From a virus, in the IMG/VR virus record IMGVR_UViG_3300046000_001847, positions 1 through 26,224 of that record: 26,224 nucleotides of DNA. One strand, given 5' to 3'. Of the stretch, positions 13,578-21,933 are shown piece by piece (the first letter of the stretch is position 1; each line of letters starts with the position of its first letter). The notes beneath the pieces are model-generated. The model saw only the letters and a list, made by a program, of their open reading frames with translations. It was not told the DNA's origin and did not search any database. The translations under genes were made by a program, and so were the position numbers.

Positions 13578-15197
13578 TTAAACTAATGTTTTTCCAGCTT
13601 TTACCGCAACATCTATCTTTTGAATAGAAAAAGGGTTGCCGTTAATGTCTACTTCTAATCCGAGTTGCATAGTTGTACCTTGACCGCCAGCATTAATAGA
13701 AAAACGGTCTATGACAATACCTGTTGAGTATTCAGCAATATTGTATTCACCAATACCATATTCATACACATTAGAGTCATCTAACATATAAGTAGTTGAG
13801 TGATAACCTTCGGTGTAATCAAAACCCCACTTAACAGCTACTGATTGATTTGTTCCACTAATGAGAACCCAACCAATCTTCTTTAAAATCTTTAGTTTAG
13901 TTGCCGCATCAAAGTCAAAGTAGTTAGTGAAATACTGTAAACGATATGTAGTACCATTGTCAGAGTGTCCGAAGTACTTACCAATGTAAGATGTCTGACC
14001 AATTAATAACTCTTTAGCCTGAGTAATACAAAATGACTTAGGTTCTAAACTATCCCAAATCGTTACTCTAGCTGAACCGTCTTGTAGACGTGAACGGGTG
14101 TCAAAGCAATACACAAAACGTGTCGTGGGTAACGACAATAAATAAATAGCATCTCGTTCGTAATAAATACTTTTAACCTTGCCTAAGTCACCTTCAGCAG
14201 CTACATTACCCATCAAGTCATCACGAACATTCTTAGAGATGTCGTTCATTGGTAGTGACTTCTCTTGAATCACACGAGCAAGGCTACGAACACCAGCATC
14301 AGATAAGAACACAATATCTGTGCCAATGTTCTGTACCGAGTCACGAGCAATACAACCTACATTGTAGATAATGTCTTGTAATACTAAGCTACCCGTATCA
14401 ATCGGGTTAGCGTAGATAGCAATGTTGTTACGACCAAAGATAACCAAGAATCCGTTATGTCCTGCGATAGCGACAATGTTATCACCATTAGGGAATACTT
14501 CTTGTAGGTTTAAATAACCTGCAGAACCTGTTGTAAAGTCAGAACCACGTAGTAAGTCACTAAAATATACTGTCTGTGTGTCTCCAACAATGTTACCAAC
14601 CCAAATACGACCAAAACCAGAGAATACTGCATTAGGTTTAAATGATGCGTTATTGTGATTAGCTGGTAATGTTCCAACATCACTTATCTGTTGAAAGCCA
14701 AACGTACCGCTATCGTGGTCGTGAGGGTCTCCACCAGAGACAGGTAACTCATGCCACACCAACATCGGATGTGCAGCTTGTGCTAAATAAGCATGAGGCT
14801 GAAAGTCATTTACATCACCGTATGGCATTGCTGCCATCTGCCAGTTGTTAGCAGTTATCGTGTATGAAGCGTTTCCTGAATTGTCTGCATTTCGGACAAG
14901 AAGCTGTGTAAGTGTTGTGCGACCAGTGAATAACTTGTTATTGCCAGCCGATATAATTGTATTGCTTCCGCCATCTACTACCTCCATCATTGATTCAATC
15001 GGATTAGAGCCTAAGTCTGTGTTCGTAGCGTTCAGCGGAGTCCAACCCCGTCTTGCACCAATACGACCATAGCGGTCAATAACGCAGTTCTGTGCCTTGA
15101 GAGCAAAGCCAGAAGACAGCGTAATGCTTGACTCTTGAAGATTGAGACCGTAAAAGCCCGGTGCTGCAATCGAGGAAGTTTGCAGTGTGCCAGCCAT
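13578..15197 (-). CDS. tail nozzle/stabilisation protein (T7 gp12 position)
   Basis: A 539-residue beta-rich protein following the adaptor gene, matching tail tubular protein B (T7 gp12) in place and general type. The N-terminus (PGFYGLNLQESSITLSSGFALKAQN) and RYGRIGARRGWTPLN are features I recognise from phage nozzle/stabilisation proteins in which a stretch binds the adaptor; the rest reads as a propeller-like set of strand repeats (VWVGN, VIFGRNNIAIYA, VFLSDAGVRSLAR). The start is ATG 15197, inside a TAATG overlap; the frame is open five codons further (GTG 15212). Homology to gp12 itself is not visible by eye. Confidence 0.74.
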   Translation of the reverse strand: MAGTLQTSSIAAPGFYGLNLQESSITLSSGFALKAQNCVIDRYGRIGARRGWTPLNATNTDLGSNPIESMMEVVDGGSNTIISAGNNKLFTGRTTLTQLLVRNADNSGNASYTITANNWQMAAMPYGDVNDFQPHAYLAQAAHPMLVWHELPVSGGDPHDHDSGTFGFQQISDVGTLPANHNNASFKPNAVFSGFGRIWVGNIVGDTQTVYFSDLLRGSDFTTGSAGYLNLQEVFPNGDNIVAIAGHNGFLVIFGRNNIAIYANPIDTGSLVLQDIIYNVGCIARDSVQNIGTDIVFLSDAGVRSLARVIQEKSLPMNDISKNVRDDLMGNVAAEGDLGKVKSIYYERDAIYLLSLPTTRFVYCFDTRSRLQDGSARVTIWDSLEPKSFCITQAKELLIGQTSYIGKYFGHSDNGTTYRLQYFTNYFDFDAATKLKILKKIGWVLISGTNQSVAVKWGFDYTEGYHSTTYMLDDSNVYEYGIGEYNIAEYSTGIVIDRFSINAGGQGTTMQLGLEVDINGNPFSIQKIDVAVKAGKTLV

Positions 15198-15853
15198 TAG
15201 ACGGGATACCACGCTTCTTCTTCAAAGTACCTTGCAGACTCTAAACCAATAGCATCAGCAAGACTTTGTTTAAATAGTGCATAGGTCTCAGCAGATTGAA
15301 CACCGCCATCTTCGCCTCTTTCCGCTTGCGCCCTAGCCAACGCACCAAGGATGACAGGCTCATGTGGAATTAAGATTTGGTCTGAGTTAGATGCAAGTTC
15401 AGCTTGCGGTTTAGTGATTTTAAACTGTATGCTGTAAACACCATCAGGTATTGGGAAAAGGTCTACTTGAGTATCCCCGTTAGCGTCTGTACCATTAAAG
15501 TTATAATAGTACGGTGAACCTTGTTGTGGTGTTGTAATTAAAAACTGTTCGTTCATAAAACGAGTAGTAGCGTTTCGCATTACAAAGTTACTAGTGTCAT
15601 TCAGAACATCAGTAACACGAAACCGCTGCCCAGTGCCAACTAGAGTATAATTAGTTGTACTTGCGCTTGTTGTGACGGTTATTGTCTCATACAAGGCGTT
15701 CCAGTTGTACGCATCTTCAACCTGACGCTTAGAATCGTTAATGTACCTTGCAATCAGTTTGACATAGGCGTTATCCGATACCGAGGAAGCCTCTGGCTCA
15801 CGCAGTCGAATCAACACATCGTTCGTTAATTCTAGGTAATTTTTAGTTGCCAT
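15197..15853 (-). CDS. tail adaptor protein (T7 gp11-like, tail tubular protein A)
   Basis: A 218-residue head-to-tail adaptor. The N-terminal helices (LTNDVLIRLREPEASSV, then YVKLIARYINDSKRQVEDAYNWNALYET) are typical of gp11/P22 gp4-type adaptors that bind the portal; the middle is a beta domain (residues 55-145) with DTQVDLFPIPDGVYSIQFKI; the C-terminal helix (AQAERGED, LADAIGLESARYFEEEAWYPV) completes the fold. It precedes the nozzle gene with a TAATG overlap. A promoter-like sequence lies just upstream. Confidence 0.82.
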   Translation of the reverse strand: MATKNYLELTNDVLIRLREPEASSVSDNAYVKLIARYINDSKRQVEDAYNWNALYETITVTTSASTTNYTLVGTGQRFRVTDVLNDTSNFVMRNATTRFMNEQFLITTPQQGSPYYYNFNGTDANGDTQVDLFPIPDGVYSIQFKITKPQAELASNSDQILIPHEPVILGALARAQAERGEDGGVQSAETYALFKQSLADAIGLESARYFEEEAWYPV

Positions 15854-15901: not shown

Positions 15902-16147
15902 TCAACAGTCCCACTTTTTTAATGCTAATGCTTTACGGGTTGGTTTACCCTTTTCGTCCTTCATTGGACCAGCGACACCGCCCATCCTAGCGCAGAAGCT
16001 CTTACGCCGTCCAGCCGCTTTAGGCGACTTTGCAGCCTCTTTAGCAGACACTGGTGGCTTTAGCTTAGAACCTGTGGTTTTGTTGTAGTAGTCTCGCCCT
16101 TTCTGATTGAGACCGCCTTCAGGGTTCTGAAATGCTTTCTTAGGCAT
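15902..16147 (-). CDS. DUF6321-like basic phage protein
   Basis: An 81-residue basic protein I recognise as a widespread phage protein (DUF6321): GGLNQKGRDYYNKTTGSKLK, then PPVSAKEAAKSPKAAGRRKS, FCARMGGVAGPMKD, and GKPTRKALALKKWDC. Two cysteines (in SFCARM and the last residue) and many Lys/Arg suggest nucleic acid or capsid surface contact; function is unknown. Its start ATG overlaps the previous stop (TAATG). First (in position) of four tiny basic proteins. Confidence 0.8.
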   Translation of the reverse strand: MPKKAFQNPEGGLNQKGRDYYNKTTGSKLKPPVSAKEAAKSPKAAGRRKSFCARMGGVAGPMKDEKGKPTRKALALKKWDC

Positions 16148-16299
16148 TACTTCTTCTTAGCTGTCTTAGCAGCATCTTTAAAGTCTTGAGCCGAAGGAGC
16201 GCCTTTGCTACCAACCTTACGCATACGCTCACCGGAGCCAGCCTTTATACGAGCTTTCTTGGCAGCGATATTGGCATACAATCCAGGTTTAGTAGCCAC
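16147..16299 (-). CDS. small basic phage protein (50 aa)
   Basis: A 50-residue protein starting at GTG 16299, with 11 Lys and 3 Arg against 3 acidic residues. Sequence features KPGLYANIAAKKARIKAGSG, ERMRKVGSKGAP and a Lys-rich tail (KTAKKK) match a very common small protein of aquatic phages. The start overlaps the end of the next upstream gene by 11 bases; the stop overlaps the DUF6321 ATG. No function known. Confidence 0.78.
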   Translation of the reverse strand: MATKPGLYANIAAKKARIKAGSGERMRKVGSKGAPSAQDFKDAAKTAKKK

Positions 16300-16432
16300 G
16301 ACTCATACCCATCTTCTTAGCTGGTTTAGCTTTAGGAGTAGTCATCTTAGCTCCTGTTTTCTGAGCATACGACTTAGCTTCTTTCTTACCCTTAGCTGTG
16401 TAAGGAAACTTCTTGTCTTTGACCATTGGCAT
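16289..16432 (-). CDS. small basic phage protein (47 aa)
   Basis: A 47-residue protein with 13 Lys and one Arg against two acidic residues: MPMVKDKKFPYTAKGKKEAK, then SYAQKTGAKMTTPKAKPAKK, ending MGMSRGY. The MPMVKxKKFPYT opening recurs in phage small proteins. Start ATG 16432, three bases after the stop of the preceding gene. Likely disordered and nucleic-acid binding; function unknown. Confidence 0.75.
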   Translation of the reverse strand: MPMVKDKKFPYTAKGKKEAKSYAQKTGAKMTTPKAKPAKKMGMSRGY

Positions 16433-16434
16433 GA

Positions 16435-16581
16435 TTACTTCCTTTTCTTTGGTTGTGGTTTAGATTGTCCTGCTTTTGATAGGGCTATTGCGATAGCTTG
16501 TTTCTGTGGCTTTCCTGCCTTCATCTCTTTACGGATGTTAGTAGAGATAGTCTTCTGTGATGTACCTGATTTAAGTGGCAT
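16435..16581 (-). CDS. DUF6496-like small basic phage protein (48 aa)
   Basis: A 48-residue protein with 11 Lys and 2 Arg against one acidic residue. It has the DUF6496 pattern, [20 protein letters not shown], then [16 protein letters not shown], widely seen in phages with unknown function. The helix-like segment ([11 protein letters not shown] and [12 protein letters not shown]) is flanked by basic flexible ends. AAGGA lies about 7 bases before the ATG. It precedes the other three basic genes with only three bases or overlaps between them. Confidence 0.82.
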
Positions 16582-16589
16582 ATCAGTCC

Positions 16590-16937
16590 TTAGGCAAAGT
16601 TCTGTACAGTTGACCTAGCGTCTAACTCTACCGTGATAACCACAGTAGTGGTAGAGCCTGTTTCAGATATAGCTCGAATCTCATCACCTTCTTCTAAAGC
16701 AACATAGTTACCATCACCAAGTAAAAAGAATGTTTTAGTAGACAATGGATAAGCAGAAGCAATCGCTACTTCAACATCTTCACTCTTGTCGTACCACCAG
16801 CAACTAAATGTCTTAGCTGAAGCAGTATTATTAAACGCATACAACAGTCTCCACAATGCTATGTTTCGTGTAGGAACAGTGAACAATGTTGTCTTAGTGT
16901 TTGCTACTAAATTCTTACCTACTGAATGTGAGCGCAT
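16590..16937 (-). CDS. small beta-rich virion-like protein, unknown function
   Basis: A 115-residue protein built of beta strands ([74 protein letters not shown]). I recognise it as a protein found in many phage genomes near head or tail genes, sometimes annotated as a structural or decoration protein. No catalytic motif. The compact all-beta look fits a capsid decoration or tail accessory role; this is inference. Confidence 0.68.
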
Positions 16938-17247: not shown

Positions 17248-18210
17248 CTAGGCGTTTACAGCCAATACGAAACCAGCTTCTGGACGTACAACTTTAGTGC
17301 CGAACAATGTGTCAGCAGTGTAAAGTGTAGACAGATACTCTTGCTTGTACTGTACTTGTGAGCGAACACCAAGCTGCTCTGCAAACACGGTTGTGTCTGT
17401 ATGGAACAATAGTGCAGCTTTGATTGCGTCGCCAACTGAGTTATCAGCGGCTGTTTCAATAGTTGGCATATTGCTTGATACATAAACATCAATACCATAC
17501 AACTTACCGATTTGACCATTGTTTACGCCACGACCATCAACGAAGTCGCTGGAGTTGTAACGGTCAATGCCCATGATTGCGTTACGCAGTGAAGGAGGAA
17601 TCGCAAACTTACGACCATCCATTGGTACGTCAGCGTCATCCATCAACTGGATTAGCTTACGGAAACCAGCGTCTGTGAACAAGTCAGAAGTGGTTACAGT
17701 GTCAAGAGCATACAGTGTCAAACCTGTGGTTGCATCGATAAAGTAAGCATTGCTGTGAACCCAGTCAGACGCATCGCCATCGCCATAAGACTTACCACCA
17801 GCGATTAACAAGTCATCAACTTTCTTAGCCAAAGCGTAACCAGCGTCTTCTGTGTAGAAAGAACGTAGGGAAGCCAATGATTGAACTTCTGTGATGTCCT
17901 CGATGAAACGTGAGTACTCAAAGTGTTGGTCAACTGCAACCAATACTTCGCTCTCAGTATCAGCTTGAACGGTAACTGCAGTGTTAGCTGCTTTAGCAGT
18001 AGCTACACCACGAGTTGGTTTAGGGATGTGCAGTGTATCGCCTTTTTTGCCTTTGAAAGACATTTTGCGAACAAGGTTAGCCAATACTAGGTTTTTCTTG
18101 TAAGCAGCGATAACTTCATCAGACCAGATTTCTGGAATGAACTTGTCTGCGTTTGCTTTTGTTACTACGGATGTTGAACCACCCGGATATGCTGCGCCTA
18201 CTAATGCCAT
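17248..18210 (-). CDS. major capsid protein
   Basis: A 320-residue HK97-fold-type capsid protein. Recognisable stretches: IPEIWSDEVIAAYKKNLVLANLV near the start, a glycine-rich loop with HIPKPTRGVATAK (about 60-72), the helix ALAKKVDDLLIAGG (about 125-138), then the P-domain style segment RKLIQLMDDADVPMDGRKFAIPP and IGKLYGIDVYVSSNMP, ending GTKVVRPEAGFVLAV. AAAGGA lies about 9 bases before the ATG. It directly follows the scaffold gene and precedes a terminator, which fits the most abundant late transcript. A 13-base inverted repeat (TTAGAA-A-TTCTAA, 18227-18239) lies between scaffold stop and this start. Confidence 0.92.
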   Translation of the reverse strand: MALVGAAYPGGSTSVVTKANADKFIPEIWSDEVIAAYKKNLVLANLVRKMSFKGKKGDTLHIPKPTRGVATAKAANTAVTVQADTESEVLVAVDQHFEYSRFIEDITEVQSLASLRSFYTEDAGYALAKKVDDLLIAGGKSYGDGDASDWVHSNAYFIDATTGLTLYALDTVTTSDLFTDAGFRKLIQLMDDADVPMDGRKFAIPPSLRNAIMGIDRYNSSDFVDGRGVNNGQIGKLYGIDVYVSSNMPTIETAADNSVGDAIKAALLFHTDTTVFAEQLGVRSQVQYKQEYLSTLYTADTLFGTKVVRPEAGFVLAVNA

Positions 18211-20813: not shown

Positions 20814-20989
20814 TATTCACCTTGTGGCACTTCTTCGGATGGTGTATTAATTAAGGTGTACCAATTATCAAATCGAGCTTGTTTCATTGCTTCGATTTCT
20901 TCATCAGTAAATGTGTGGTTATCCTCTAGGTGCAAAGCATCGGAAAATCGTTCACCATTTTGTTCAATAACAAAGTCAATTTTTATCAT
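20813..20989 (-). CDS. small acidic protein between fibre-like genes
   Basis: A 58-residue acidic protein. The start is ATG 20989 (TGATG overlap with the collagen-like stop) rather than the frame's further upstream codon at 21013. Features: a beta hairpin (MIKIDFVIEQNGERFSDALHL) followed by a helix (TDEEIEAMKQARFDNWYTLI) and an acidic end. Similar in design to the 58-aa protein after the tail fibre gene, though with no sequence identity I can claim. Possible fibre accessory; unknown function. Confidence 0.65.
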   Translation of the reverse strand: MIKIDFVIEQNGERFSDALHLEDNHTFTDEEIEAMKQARFDNWYTLINTPSEEVPQGE

Positions 20990-21933
20990 CACGCCACCGC
21001 TACGCAACGCCAATCTGAATTGGCAACATTATAAATAAAACCAATGTCTAATCTGTTTGTGTTTACTGTAGTGCTTGGTAAGGTTACTGTAGATGATTCA
21101 AAAGATGCGCCCCAAGTAATAGCAATAGCACCTGTTCCTGTAATTGAAATCCACAACTTTTGCCCGTTTACAGGTGTACCAGTTAAATTTGTAGTAAATG
21201 ATGTAATGGCTACAGATTGTCCTGTAATTACCATCATGTCATATAAATCGGTATTTAACGTAGGTGTAGCAGAGTTTGCGGTTGATGCTAATACTCTAGG
21301 GTTAATACGAGTTCCGCTAACCAAGCCACCTGTGATGGCTACGGCACTAGCGTCTTGTTGTGCCATAGTACCTAATGTGCCGTCAATACCAGTTAAGGTA
21401 TTAATCTGGTTCTGTAAAGAAACTAACGTATCGGTAACAGACTGTGAAGTCCCAGAGCCACCGCTGTTGATAATAATGTTTTGAGCAACATCTGGAGACA
21501 GAATCTGACCGCAATCAATCTCAGAACCATTCGATAGGTAAACAACTAACGAACCATCAAAGTCAATCTTAGCGTCAACAACAGAGATACCGTCTTTACC
21601 ATCAACTCCGTCTTTGCCGTCTTTACCATCTTTGCCACTAACACCATTAAGACCGTCTTTACCGTCTACTCCGTCTTTACCTGCTTTACCAGTAGCGCCT
21701 TGAACACCTTGCATTGCAGGGGTGTTGTTCAGTTCTACTAACTTGGCTTCTAACTTAGCTTCAATGGTTTTTAAGGCTTGTACAACCATGTCTGCTTTTT
21801 GACCAACAGACTCATCTCGGCGTTGTTTTGCCTCAACGATGGTTTTCTCAACCTGAGCTAAGGCGGCTTGCTGTTCCTCTAAAGAAACAGTGCCGTCCAT
21901 CACTTTTTTAATGTAGTCTTTTATATTAGCCAT
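20989..21933 (-). CDS. collagen-like tail/virion fibre protein
   Basis: A 314-residue trimeric fibre candidate. The N-terminal 70 residues are a coiled coil (LEEQQAALAQVEKTIVEAKQ, LKTIEAKLEAKLVEL). Residues 76-117 are 14 Gly-X-Y triplets (GKDGVDGKDG and similar), with many GKD, typical of phage collagen-like stalks. Then a beta region with DAKIDFDGSLVVYLSNGSEI, a helix QSVTDTLVSLQNQINTL, the shared module LGTMAQQDASAVAITGG, and a C-terminal domain (VNTNRLDIGFIYNVANSDWRC). The last part resembles a small beta-sandwich head. Starts eight bases inside the portal stop. Confidence 0.84.
   Translation of the reverse strand: MANIKDYIKKVMDGTVSLEEQQAALAQVEKTIVEAKQRRDESVGQKADMVVQALKTIEAKLEAKLVELNNTPAMQGVQGATGKAGKDGVDGKDGLNGVSGKDGKDGKDGVDGKDGISVVDAKIDFDGSLVVYLSNGSEIDCGQILSPDVAQNIIINSGGSGTSQSVTDTLVSLQNQINTLTGIDGTLGTMAQQDASAVAITGGLVSGTRINPRVLASTANSATPTLNTDLYDMMVITGQSVAITSFTTNLTGTPVNGQKLWISITGTGAIAITWGASFESSTVTLPSTTVNTNRLDIGFIYNVANSDWRCVAVA
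21583..21708 (-). repeat. 9-base tandem repeats encoding the collagen-like stalk
   Basis: The 14 Gly-X-Y triplets come from imperfect nine-base units, with GGnAAAGAC (Gly-Lys-Asp) recurring. Such tracts can change length by slippage or recombination, so stalk length may vary among relatives. The unit count is what this sequence shows. Confidence 0.75.

Follow-up and report, generated by a model that had tools for sequence, protein, structure and literature searches.

A recurrent cassette of four small basic proteins among the head genes of tailed phages

The internal proteins of phage T4 are small and/or basic and are packed with the viral DNA. Small basic proteins in the virion are also a known feature of eukaryotic viruses: in its available part, a chlorovirus paper describes protamine-like proteins of adeno-, asfar- and baculoviruses and basic proteins of chloroviruses packed with the viral DNA, and the same part states that there is no evidence for basic proteins contributing much to the neutralisation of phage genomes (PMC3281028). 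The products of the four-gene cassette analysed here (A to D, Table 1) are likewise small and basic and are proposed to be virion-associated, but they form a multi-gene set with fixed partners, for which packaging and DNA contact are only proposed. No sequence relation to packed DNA-binding proteins was detected in the searches run, and the predicted structures of D and A had no fold match in the PDB at E<=0.001, DNA-binding proteins included. Among phage proteins, the DUF6321 (T4-GC119) proteins of cyanomyoviruses carry at the C-terminus of chains of 297-839 aa the same full DUF6321 domain that constitutes A, whereas A is a free 81-aa protein within a cassette. The phrog_2423 proteins, such as ORF22 of SCUT-S1 and the N-terminus of the AP22 protease, share the hairpin-type sequence of D and adjoin or are fused to head genes; the A and B profiles had no match in the examined neighbourhood of the D gene in SCUT-S1 and AP22. 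The families are already present in Pfam and PHROGs, without function. No mention of 'DUF6321' or 'DUF6496' was found in the literature searched and no description of such a cassette in broader searches, both covering few subscription journals; the cassette, its spread and its link to the virion look new as a described system.

The window is the whole 26,224-base virus record IMGVR_UViG_3300046000_001847. A preliminary description had proposed four consecutive, coupled ORFs of 81, 50, 47 and 48 aa at 15902-16581 encoding strongly basic proteins, and these exist as described, with pI values of 10.3-11.4 and net charges of +12 (D), +12 (C), +11 (B) and +15 (A). Consecutive on the minus strand, they are transcribed in the order D-C-B-A. 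A gap of 2 nt separates D from C; the overlap is 11 nt between C and B and 1 nt between B and A, and a purine-rich, ribosome-site-like stretch immediately precedes D, C and A. The location 'beside the tail genes' is better given as the junction between the major capsid protein and the tail adaptor, small genes of 68 and 115 aa separating the capsid gene from the cassette. This position suggests that the cassette is expressed late.

Table 1. Features of the window in and around the cassette.
Feature	Position	Strand	Length (aa)	Remarks
Collagen-like repeat protein	20989..21933	-	314	head region
Major capsid protein	17248..18210	-		phrog_267 (3.5e-50); upstream border
F115	16590..16937	-	115	just upstream of cassette; weak phrog_1276, phrog_26609
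D	16435..16581	-	48	ORF; phrog_2423; first cassette gene; predicted helical hairpin and basic tail
C	16289..16432	-	47	ORF; no family above cut-off
B	16147..16299	-	50	ORF; GTG start; phrog_16028
A	15902..16147	-	81	ORF; DUF6321 (PF19846); two coupled cysteines
Tail/adaptor protein (SU10 adaptor)	15197..15853	-		PF24175 (8.5e-15); phrog_10775; downstream border
544-aa protein	13578..15212	-	544	after adaptor; phrog_5107 ('amidase') over most of length; partial match to phrog_578 (head closure Hc3)

The 'amidase' label of the 544-aa protein that follows the adaptor may be a misnomer.

Only A passes a Pfam cut-off, matching DUF6321 at 96.7 bits (E 1.2e-27, cut-off 28.5) over profile positions 2-72 of 72, in agreement with the preliminary assignment. 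The second assignment, of another of the four proteins to DUF6496 (PF20106), did not hold. Although D shares a second-helix motif with this family, it scored 11.8 bits, under the cut-off of 24, over profile positions 34-49 only, and was rejected as a member; DUF6496 was kept only as a related, slot-equivalent family. The slot of D is occupied in four other loci (L011, L005, L253 and L015) by DUF6496 genes above the cut-off (40-44 bits), and part of the matches counted as D are partial matches to DUF6496-type genes (L005, L015). Over essentially whole PHROG profiles, B matched phrog_16028 (positions 2-49 of 50, E 1.3e-23) and D matched phrog_2423 (positions 1-47 of 52, E 1.1e-18). For C, no family scored above the cut-off, the best being a weak match to phrog_33179 (E 0.039); two ORFs in other loci (L017 and L050) each match both C and D. 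Two single PHROG profiles each match both A and B: phrog_11180 aligns with B at 13-54 (E 2.4e-4) and with A at 66-141, phrog_28131 with B at 1-44 (weak, E 0.0081) and with A at 300-372. The two proteins are thus probably fused in some phages.

Scans of viral contigs revealed at least 591 relatives of A, 596 of B, 578 of D and 131 of C, those of C being fetched with alignment A3. In every countable comparison with the window copy, pN was lower than pS (A 83/83, B 175/175, C 12/12, D 80/80). The pooled pN/pS ratios were 0.15 for A, 0.25 for B, 0.28 for C (12 pairs) and 0.21 for D; synonymous sites of A, B and D are near saturation, so that values of 0.15-0.28 are rough while their direction is not in doubt. 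Chance ORFs are ruled out by this homology and by pN<pS in all counted pairs: the four genes are real and under purifying selection. B has 16 invariant positions among 19 diverse relatives. The A domain occurs in 536 phage records (one query) and D in 407, of which 277 are from Pseudomonas. The expectation that gene callers often miss genes of this size was borne out in one case, the A gene of S-CBP4 (NC_025464) being unannotated.

Of the A loci, 111 have 1.5 kb of flanking DNA on both sides; within this distance 92 of them contain B, 79 contain D and 43 contain C, always on the strand of A; around random points, B was found at 0 of 731 and D at 4 of 731. Modules standing alone within 3 kb were seen in 13 of 43 (A), 5 of 37 (B) and 10 of 37 (D) interior loci of their own scans. 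The loci behind both sets of counts were fetched because they hold a module, the modules themselves being the baits, and the module HMMs derive from loci found in the scans for A, B and D. Since such baits bias co-occurrence, loci were fetched again with genes outside the cassette. With the tail adaptor of the window as bait, 48 distinct loci with at least 2 kb upstream were obtained; 43 of them contain D, 39 contain B, 38 contain A and 26 contain C, with at least one module present in 46 and none in 2. In another lineage, arranged as terminase, A, B, D, portal, the portal bait gave B in 46, D in 46 and A in 38 of 57 loci, with at least one module in 54 and none in 3. With the capsid bait, modules were present in 11 of the 11 loci that extend to the adaptor, and no module was seen within 4.5 kb downstream in 25 of 41 loci with 2.5 kb downstream. 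The adaptor is listed in none of these 25, which makes this bait mostly uninformative; two of them (L560, L586) list modules after F115 and a third (L619) lists modules outside the examined stretch. These samples comprise the best 80 loci of each scan, of which 48, 57 and 41 were distinct with enough flanking DNA, so that the counts concern close relatives; distinctness was judged by exact sequence, which leaves near-identical contigs in the samples, and some contigs appear in more than one scan.

The order of the genes depends on the lineage: among loci obtained with module baits, D-C-B-A was found in 41 and A-B-D in 33, and within the lineage of the window the block follows F115 in some loci and precedes it in others. 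An apparent loss of the cassette in 10 of 73 F115-adaptor intervals was discarded, as 14 of 14 short-interval loci have modules one gene further upstream, before F115; these loci came from module baits, and absence therefore needed testing with other baits. A, B and D are thus linked to each other and to head or packaging genes in more than one phage lineage. Recurrence across phages, raised in the preliminary description as a point to check, is borne out by A, B and D found together in unrelated phages in differing orders, and the frequent loss in close relatives that would have spoken against it was not seen (46/48 adaptor-bait and 11/11 adaptor-reaching capsid-bait loci with modules). The set persists even where its position changes, as would be expected from a shared function more than from a single inherited arrangement. 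B also occurs in contigs of bacterial and archaeal genomes: the best 80 loci, on contigs that are often short, had B alone in 49, B with A in 23 and B with D in 11, and are probably prophages. Many of these contigs (L319-L398) are MAG contigs, and isolates of Variovorax, Xylophilus and Xenophilus are represented too.

The placement with virion genes proposed at the outset was recovered as a late head/tail module in several phage groups. The cassette of the window sits at the capsid/tail adaptor junction and that of the second lineage at the terminase/portal junction. Neighbours of at least 130 aa were scored in 208 distinct loci with two or more modules, which were fetched because they hold a module, their functions being read from one representative per cluster. 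The downstream neighbour was the tail adaptor in 87 loci and the portal in 28; the upstream one was the terminase in 41 and the capsid in 19, others falling into tail-fibre or virion-protein clusters, and the available stretch contained no qualifying neighbour downstream in 38 and upstream in 46 of the 208. In three loci, head-morphogenesis and scaffold genes flank D-B. In the Pelagibacter phages HTVC168P and Eistla, a Lys-rich protein of 35 and 34 aa, respectively, is followed by B and A between scaffold and capsid; A-B stands between a head-assembly gene and the capsid gene in S-RIP1 and S-CBP4 and is flanked by capsid and tail tube in P-SCSP1b, and in MEP301 A precedes the portal. D directly follows the head-morphogenesis gene in KBS-S-2A and in Pbunavirus Ab28, is found two genes further on in phiEap-2, and precedes the small terminase in BA3. 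As exceptions, the A-type genes of Lederberg and of Vibrio 340E47.2 stand among small genes outside the head genes. Near that of Pelagibacter phage Lederberg, outside known head genes, a C-type match was also observed (L241:5388-5507, E 1.3e-10).

Evidence from virus particles was taken from published proteomics of other phages, which covers relatives of D and longer proteins with an A domain, and proteins of both kinds were found in particles; no virion record was found for B, C or A as a free small protein. The available text on Pbunavirus SCUT-S1 reports ORF22 (7.46 kDa) in purified particles by nanoLC-MS/MS, with 7 peptides and 77% coverage (PMC6521218); this is gene S1_022, and residues 1-50 of its product are homologous to D. 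For Pa193, the accessible portion of the paper gives gp21 as detected by LC-MS, gp19 as the 765-residue portal and gp24 as the protease/scaffold (PMC11042391). In the Pa193 record a 68-aa D homologue is encoded by the second gene after the 765-aa protein, and by gene order gp21 should be this homologue. For A, the part of the S-CREM2 study at hand includes ORF137 (108049-109521) in the virion list with 4 peptides and only 4.1% coverage (PMC10665884); the A domain forms the last 76 residues of this protein. The GC119 proteins of P-HM2 and S-SSM5 are annotated 'similar to Synechococcus phage S-SM1 protein'. Within 36 kb of S-SSM5 sequence, 6 of 55 features bear this note, namely gp18, gp19, gp20, gp21, gp23 and gp3, all genes of the virion or the prohead; no replication gene bears it. 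Since the S-SM1 virion was analysed in that study (PMC3037559), the annotation most likely denotes virion proteins of S-SM1; as a counter-point, the GC119 gene of S-SM1 itself is labelled 'hypothetical' and two of its neighbours are labelled structural. Fold search also matched A to a 517-residue protein that S-SCSM1 lists as 'Virion protein' (E 8.4e-3), and in the one checkable case, NMNAT, the 'virion' label of this phage agrees with the available proteomics (PMC9602691). S-SZBM1_192 (SSZBM1_192) ends in an A domain and is not among the 30 virion proteins found for S-SZBM1 (PMC9146016 Table 1). In papers on E217 and P-SCSP1u, the terms searched for yielded no mention of these proteins.

Another S-SCSM1 product labelled 'virion protein', the 69-aa DUF3008 protein S-SCSM1_93 (L401:1627-1836), may be a further small protein of virions. 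A DUF6321-like domain was also seen by fold search in two BFVD entries, A0A6J5R4H4 (AAA-named, 1143 aa) and A0A6J5N5R9 (ferritin/Dps-named, 679 aa), both proteins of uncultured phages.

In AP22, the D domain forms the N-terminus of the head maturation protease (DUF2213). Prohead proteases act within the prohead, which places the D domain of AP22 inside it. In the accessible portion of the Pa193 paper, a fragment of gp24 is visible under the five-fold vertices (PMC11042391), and in SCUT-S1, a close relative of Pa193, the gene at the place of gp24 encodes a DUF2213 protein. By analogy, D of the window would also be located inside the prohead. AlphaFold2 predicted D as a helical hairpin (pLDDT 84.9, helices 9-21 and 26-36) and A as a compact helical domain (pLDDT 87.9); by sequence, no solved structure was found for A, D or B at E<=1. 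The two cysteines of A were both present in 94 distinct tails and replaced by Leu and Ala in 24, a form that may be a single clade, and no tail had only one of them; 3 tails without a clear Trp and 1 sequence without the motif were set aside from this count, and MEP301, with Ala and Phe at these positions, is a separate case. Their being kept or lost together suggests a disulfide or a shared site. The idea that the prohead protease frees A in cyanomyoviruses was considered and dropped, because the LxE cleavage site, which should immediately precede the packaged domain of a T4-type internal protein, stands directly before A in only 1 of the 5 proteins compared; in 4 of these 5, LxE occurs within A's own motif GGLNE.

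The charge of the modules is not conserved to the same extent. A was net positive in 156 of 156 distinct domains (minimum +5) and B in 160 of 160 (minimum +6), the minimum for C was +3, and D fell as low as +2 among its relatives and ranged from +1 to +4 in AP22 and the two Pbunavirus domains scored. The D relatives of SCUT-S1 (+3) and AP22 (+1) are nearly neutral compared with the strongly basic D of the window, which indicates that charge is not what D conserves, and the low charge of the SCUT-S1 relative found in virions counts against DNA compaction by D. Because A and B are always basic and D is not, a split of roles is suggested in which A and B, with C, most likely contact DNA and D is a docking hairpin. 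One copy of each protein carries +50. On that basis, neutralising a tenth of a genome assumed to be 40 kb long would take about 160 sets, and a local role in organising DNA near the shell or the portal therefore appears more plausible than bulk compaction.

Our tentative reading, which we place just short of evenly balanced, is that these are late head-module proteins of the virion, A and B contacting DNA and D docking to the prohead. The four genes would be a late, co-translated set whose products become part of the virion, most likely in the interior of the capsid. The hairpin of D would dock to the prohead interior, at the scaffold/protease, the portal or the capsid lining, and A and B, together with C, would be its consistently cationic partners contacting the packaged DNA and perhaps tying it to the shell or portal. 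The location in the capsid interior, the contact with DNA, the division of roles and the presence of A, B and C as free virion parts are what we infer. If this reading is right, a set of genes that is very common in aquatic phages but has no name would become a defined virion system, proteins of 47-81 residues that lend themselves to expression and testing would be tied to head assembly across differing gene orders, families mostly recorded as 'hypothetical' in hundreds of records would acquire a testable role, and the result would bear on whether tailed phages organise their packaged DNA with proteins. A wider and rather doubtful proposal is that A, B, C, D and sister modules make up a modular 'mini-chromatin' kit of tailed, above all aquatic, phages, in which small cationic proteins would organise the packaged genome, as separate genes in small podoviruses and as one strung protein (T4-GC119) in large cyanomyoviruses; if true, it would contradict the view on basic proteins in phages given in the part of PMC3281028 available.

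Unlikely, in our opinion, is that the proteins act in head assembly only, as small partners of the prohead, the portal-neck or the scaffold through protein-protein contacts that leave DNA untouched, their basic charge serving to bind acidic scaffold or capsid surfaces. Such a function would suit a cassette adjoining scaffold, protease, portal and capsid genes, as well as the fusion of D to a prohead protease and the near neutrality of D relatives, but it fits poorly with A and B being strongly basic in all distinct domains and with the A domain of T4-like cyanophages lying on a long protein encoded between two terminase genes, outside the scaffold block. As a general expectation, host-specific effectors would not be strongly conserved across hosts. 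It is improbable that the proteins are virion-borne effectors released into the host, where they would bind DNA, RNA or ribosomes or counter defence: their small size, basic charge and virion link, and the occurrence in each phage of several modules that are partly interchangeable, which might fit host-specific tools, are set against the strong conservation of B across phages of different hosts and the strict linkage to head genes. Most improbable are late cytoplasmic helpers without a virion part, aiding packaging or the folding or solubility of head proteins, or else freely moving accessory genes inserted between head genes by happenstance, since D relatives are found in virions, an A-domain protein is in a virion list and the modules are near-universal in the two lineages sampled, even if order and position vary within one lineage, terminase/portal junctions are used, 5 of 105 outside-bait loci have no module and S-SZBM1_192 went undetected.

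Besides the four proteins of the window, other small basic ones were observed at such loci. In one F115-adaptor interval (L049, 1003 bases), fetched because it holds a module, further small Lys-rich ORFs lie between D and A, and the cassette slot thus has more modules than the four. In Roseobacter phage CRP-5, a sister basic module (L003:7499-7762, phrog_7595) stands two genes from B; it also partially matches phrog_220, 'minor head protein and DNA pilot', and a similar protein is encoded two genes after D in KBS-S-2A (L243:5464-5739). The small Lys-rich protein right after B in CRP-5 (L003:8102-8227) contains the motif YMPDGKLMKG, to be compared with the internal VMPDGMLMKG of the GC119 protein of P-HM2 (P-HM2_112, L314:1847-2740). 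Judged by this reappearing motif, it looks as if the separate genes were beads of the larger GC119 protein.
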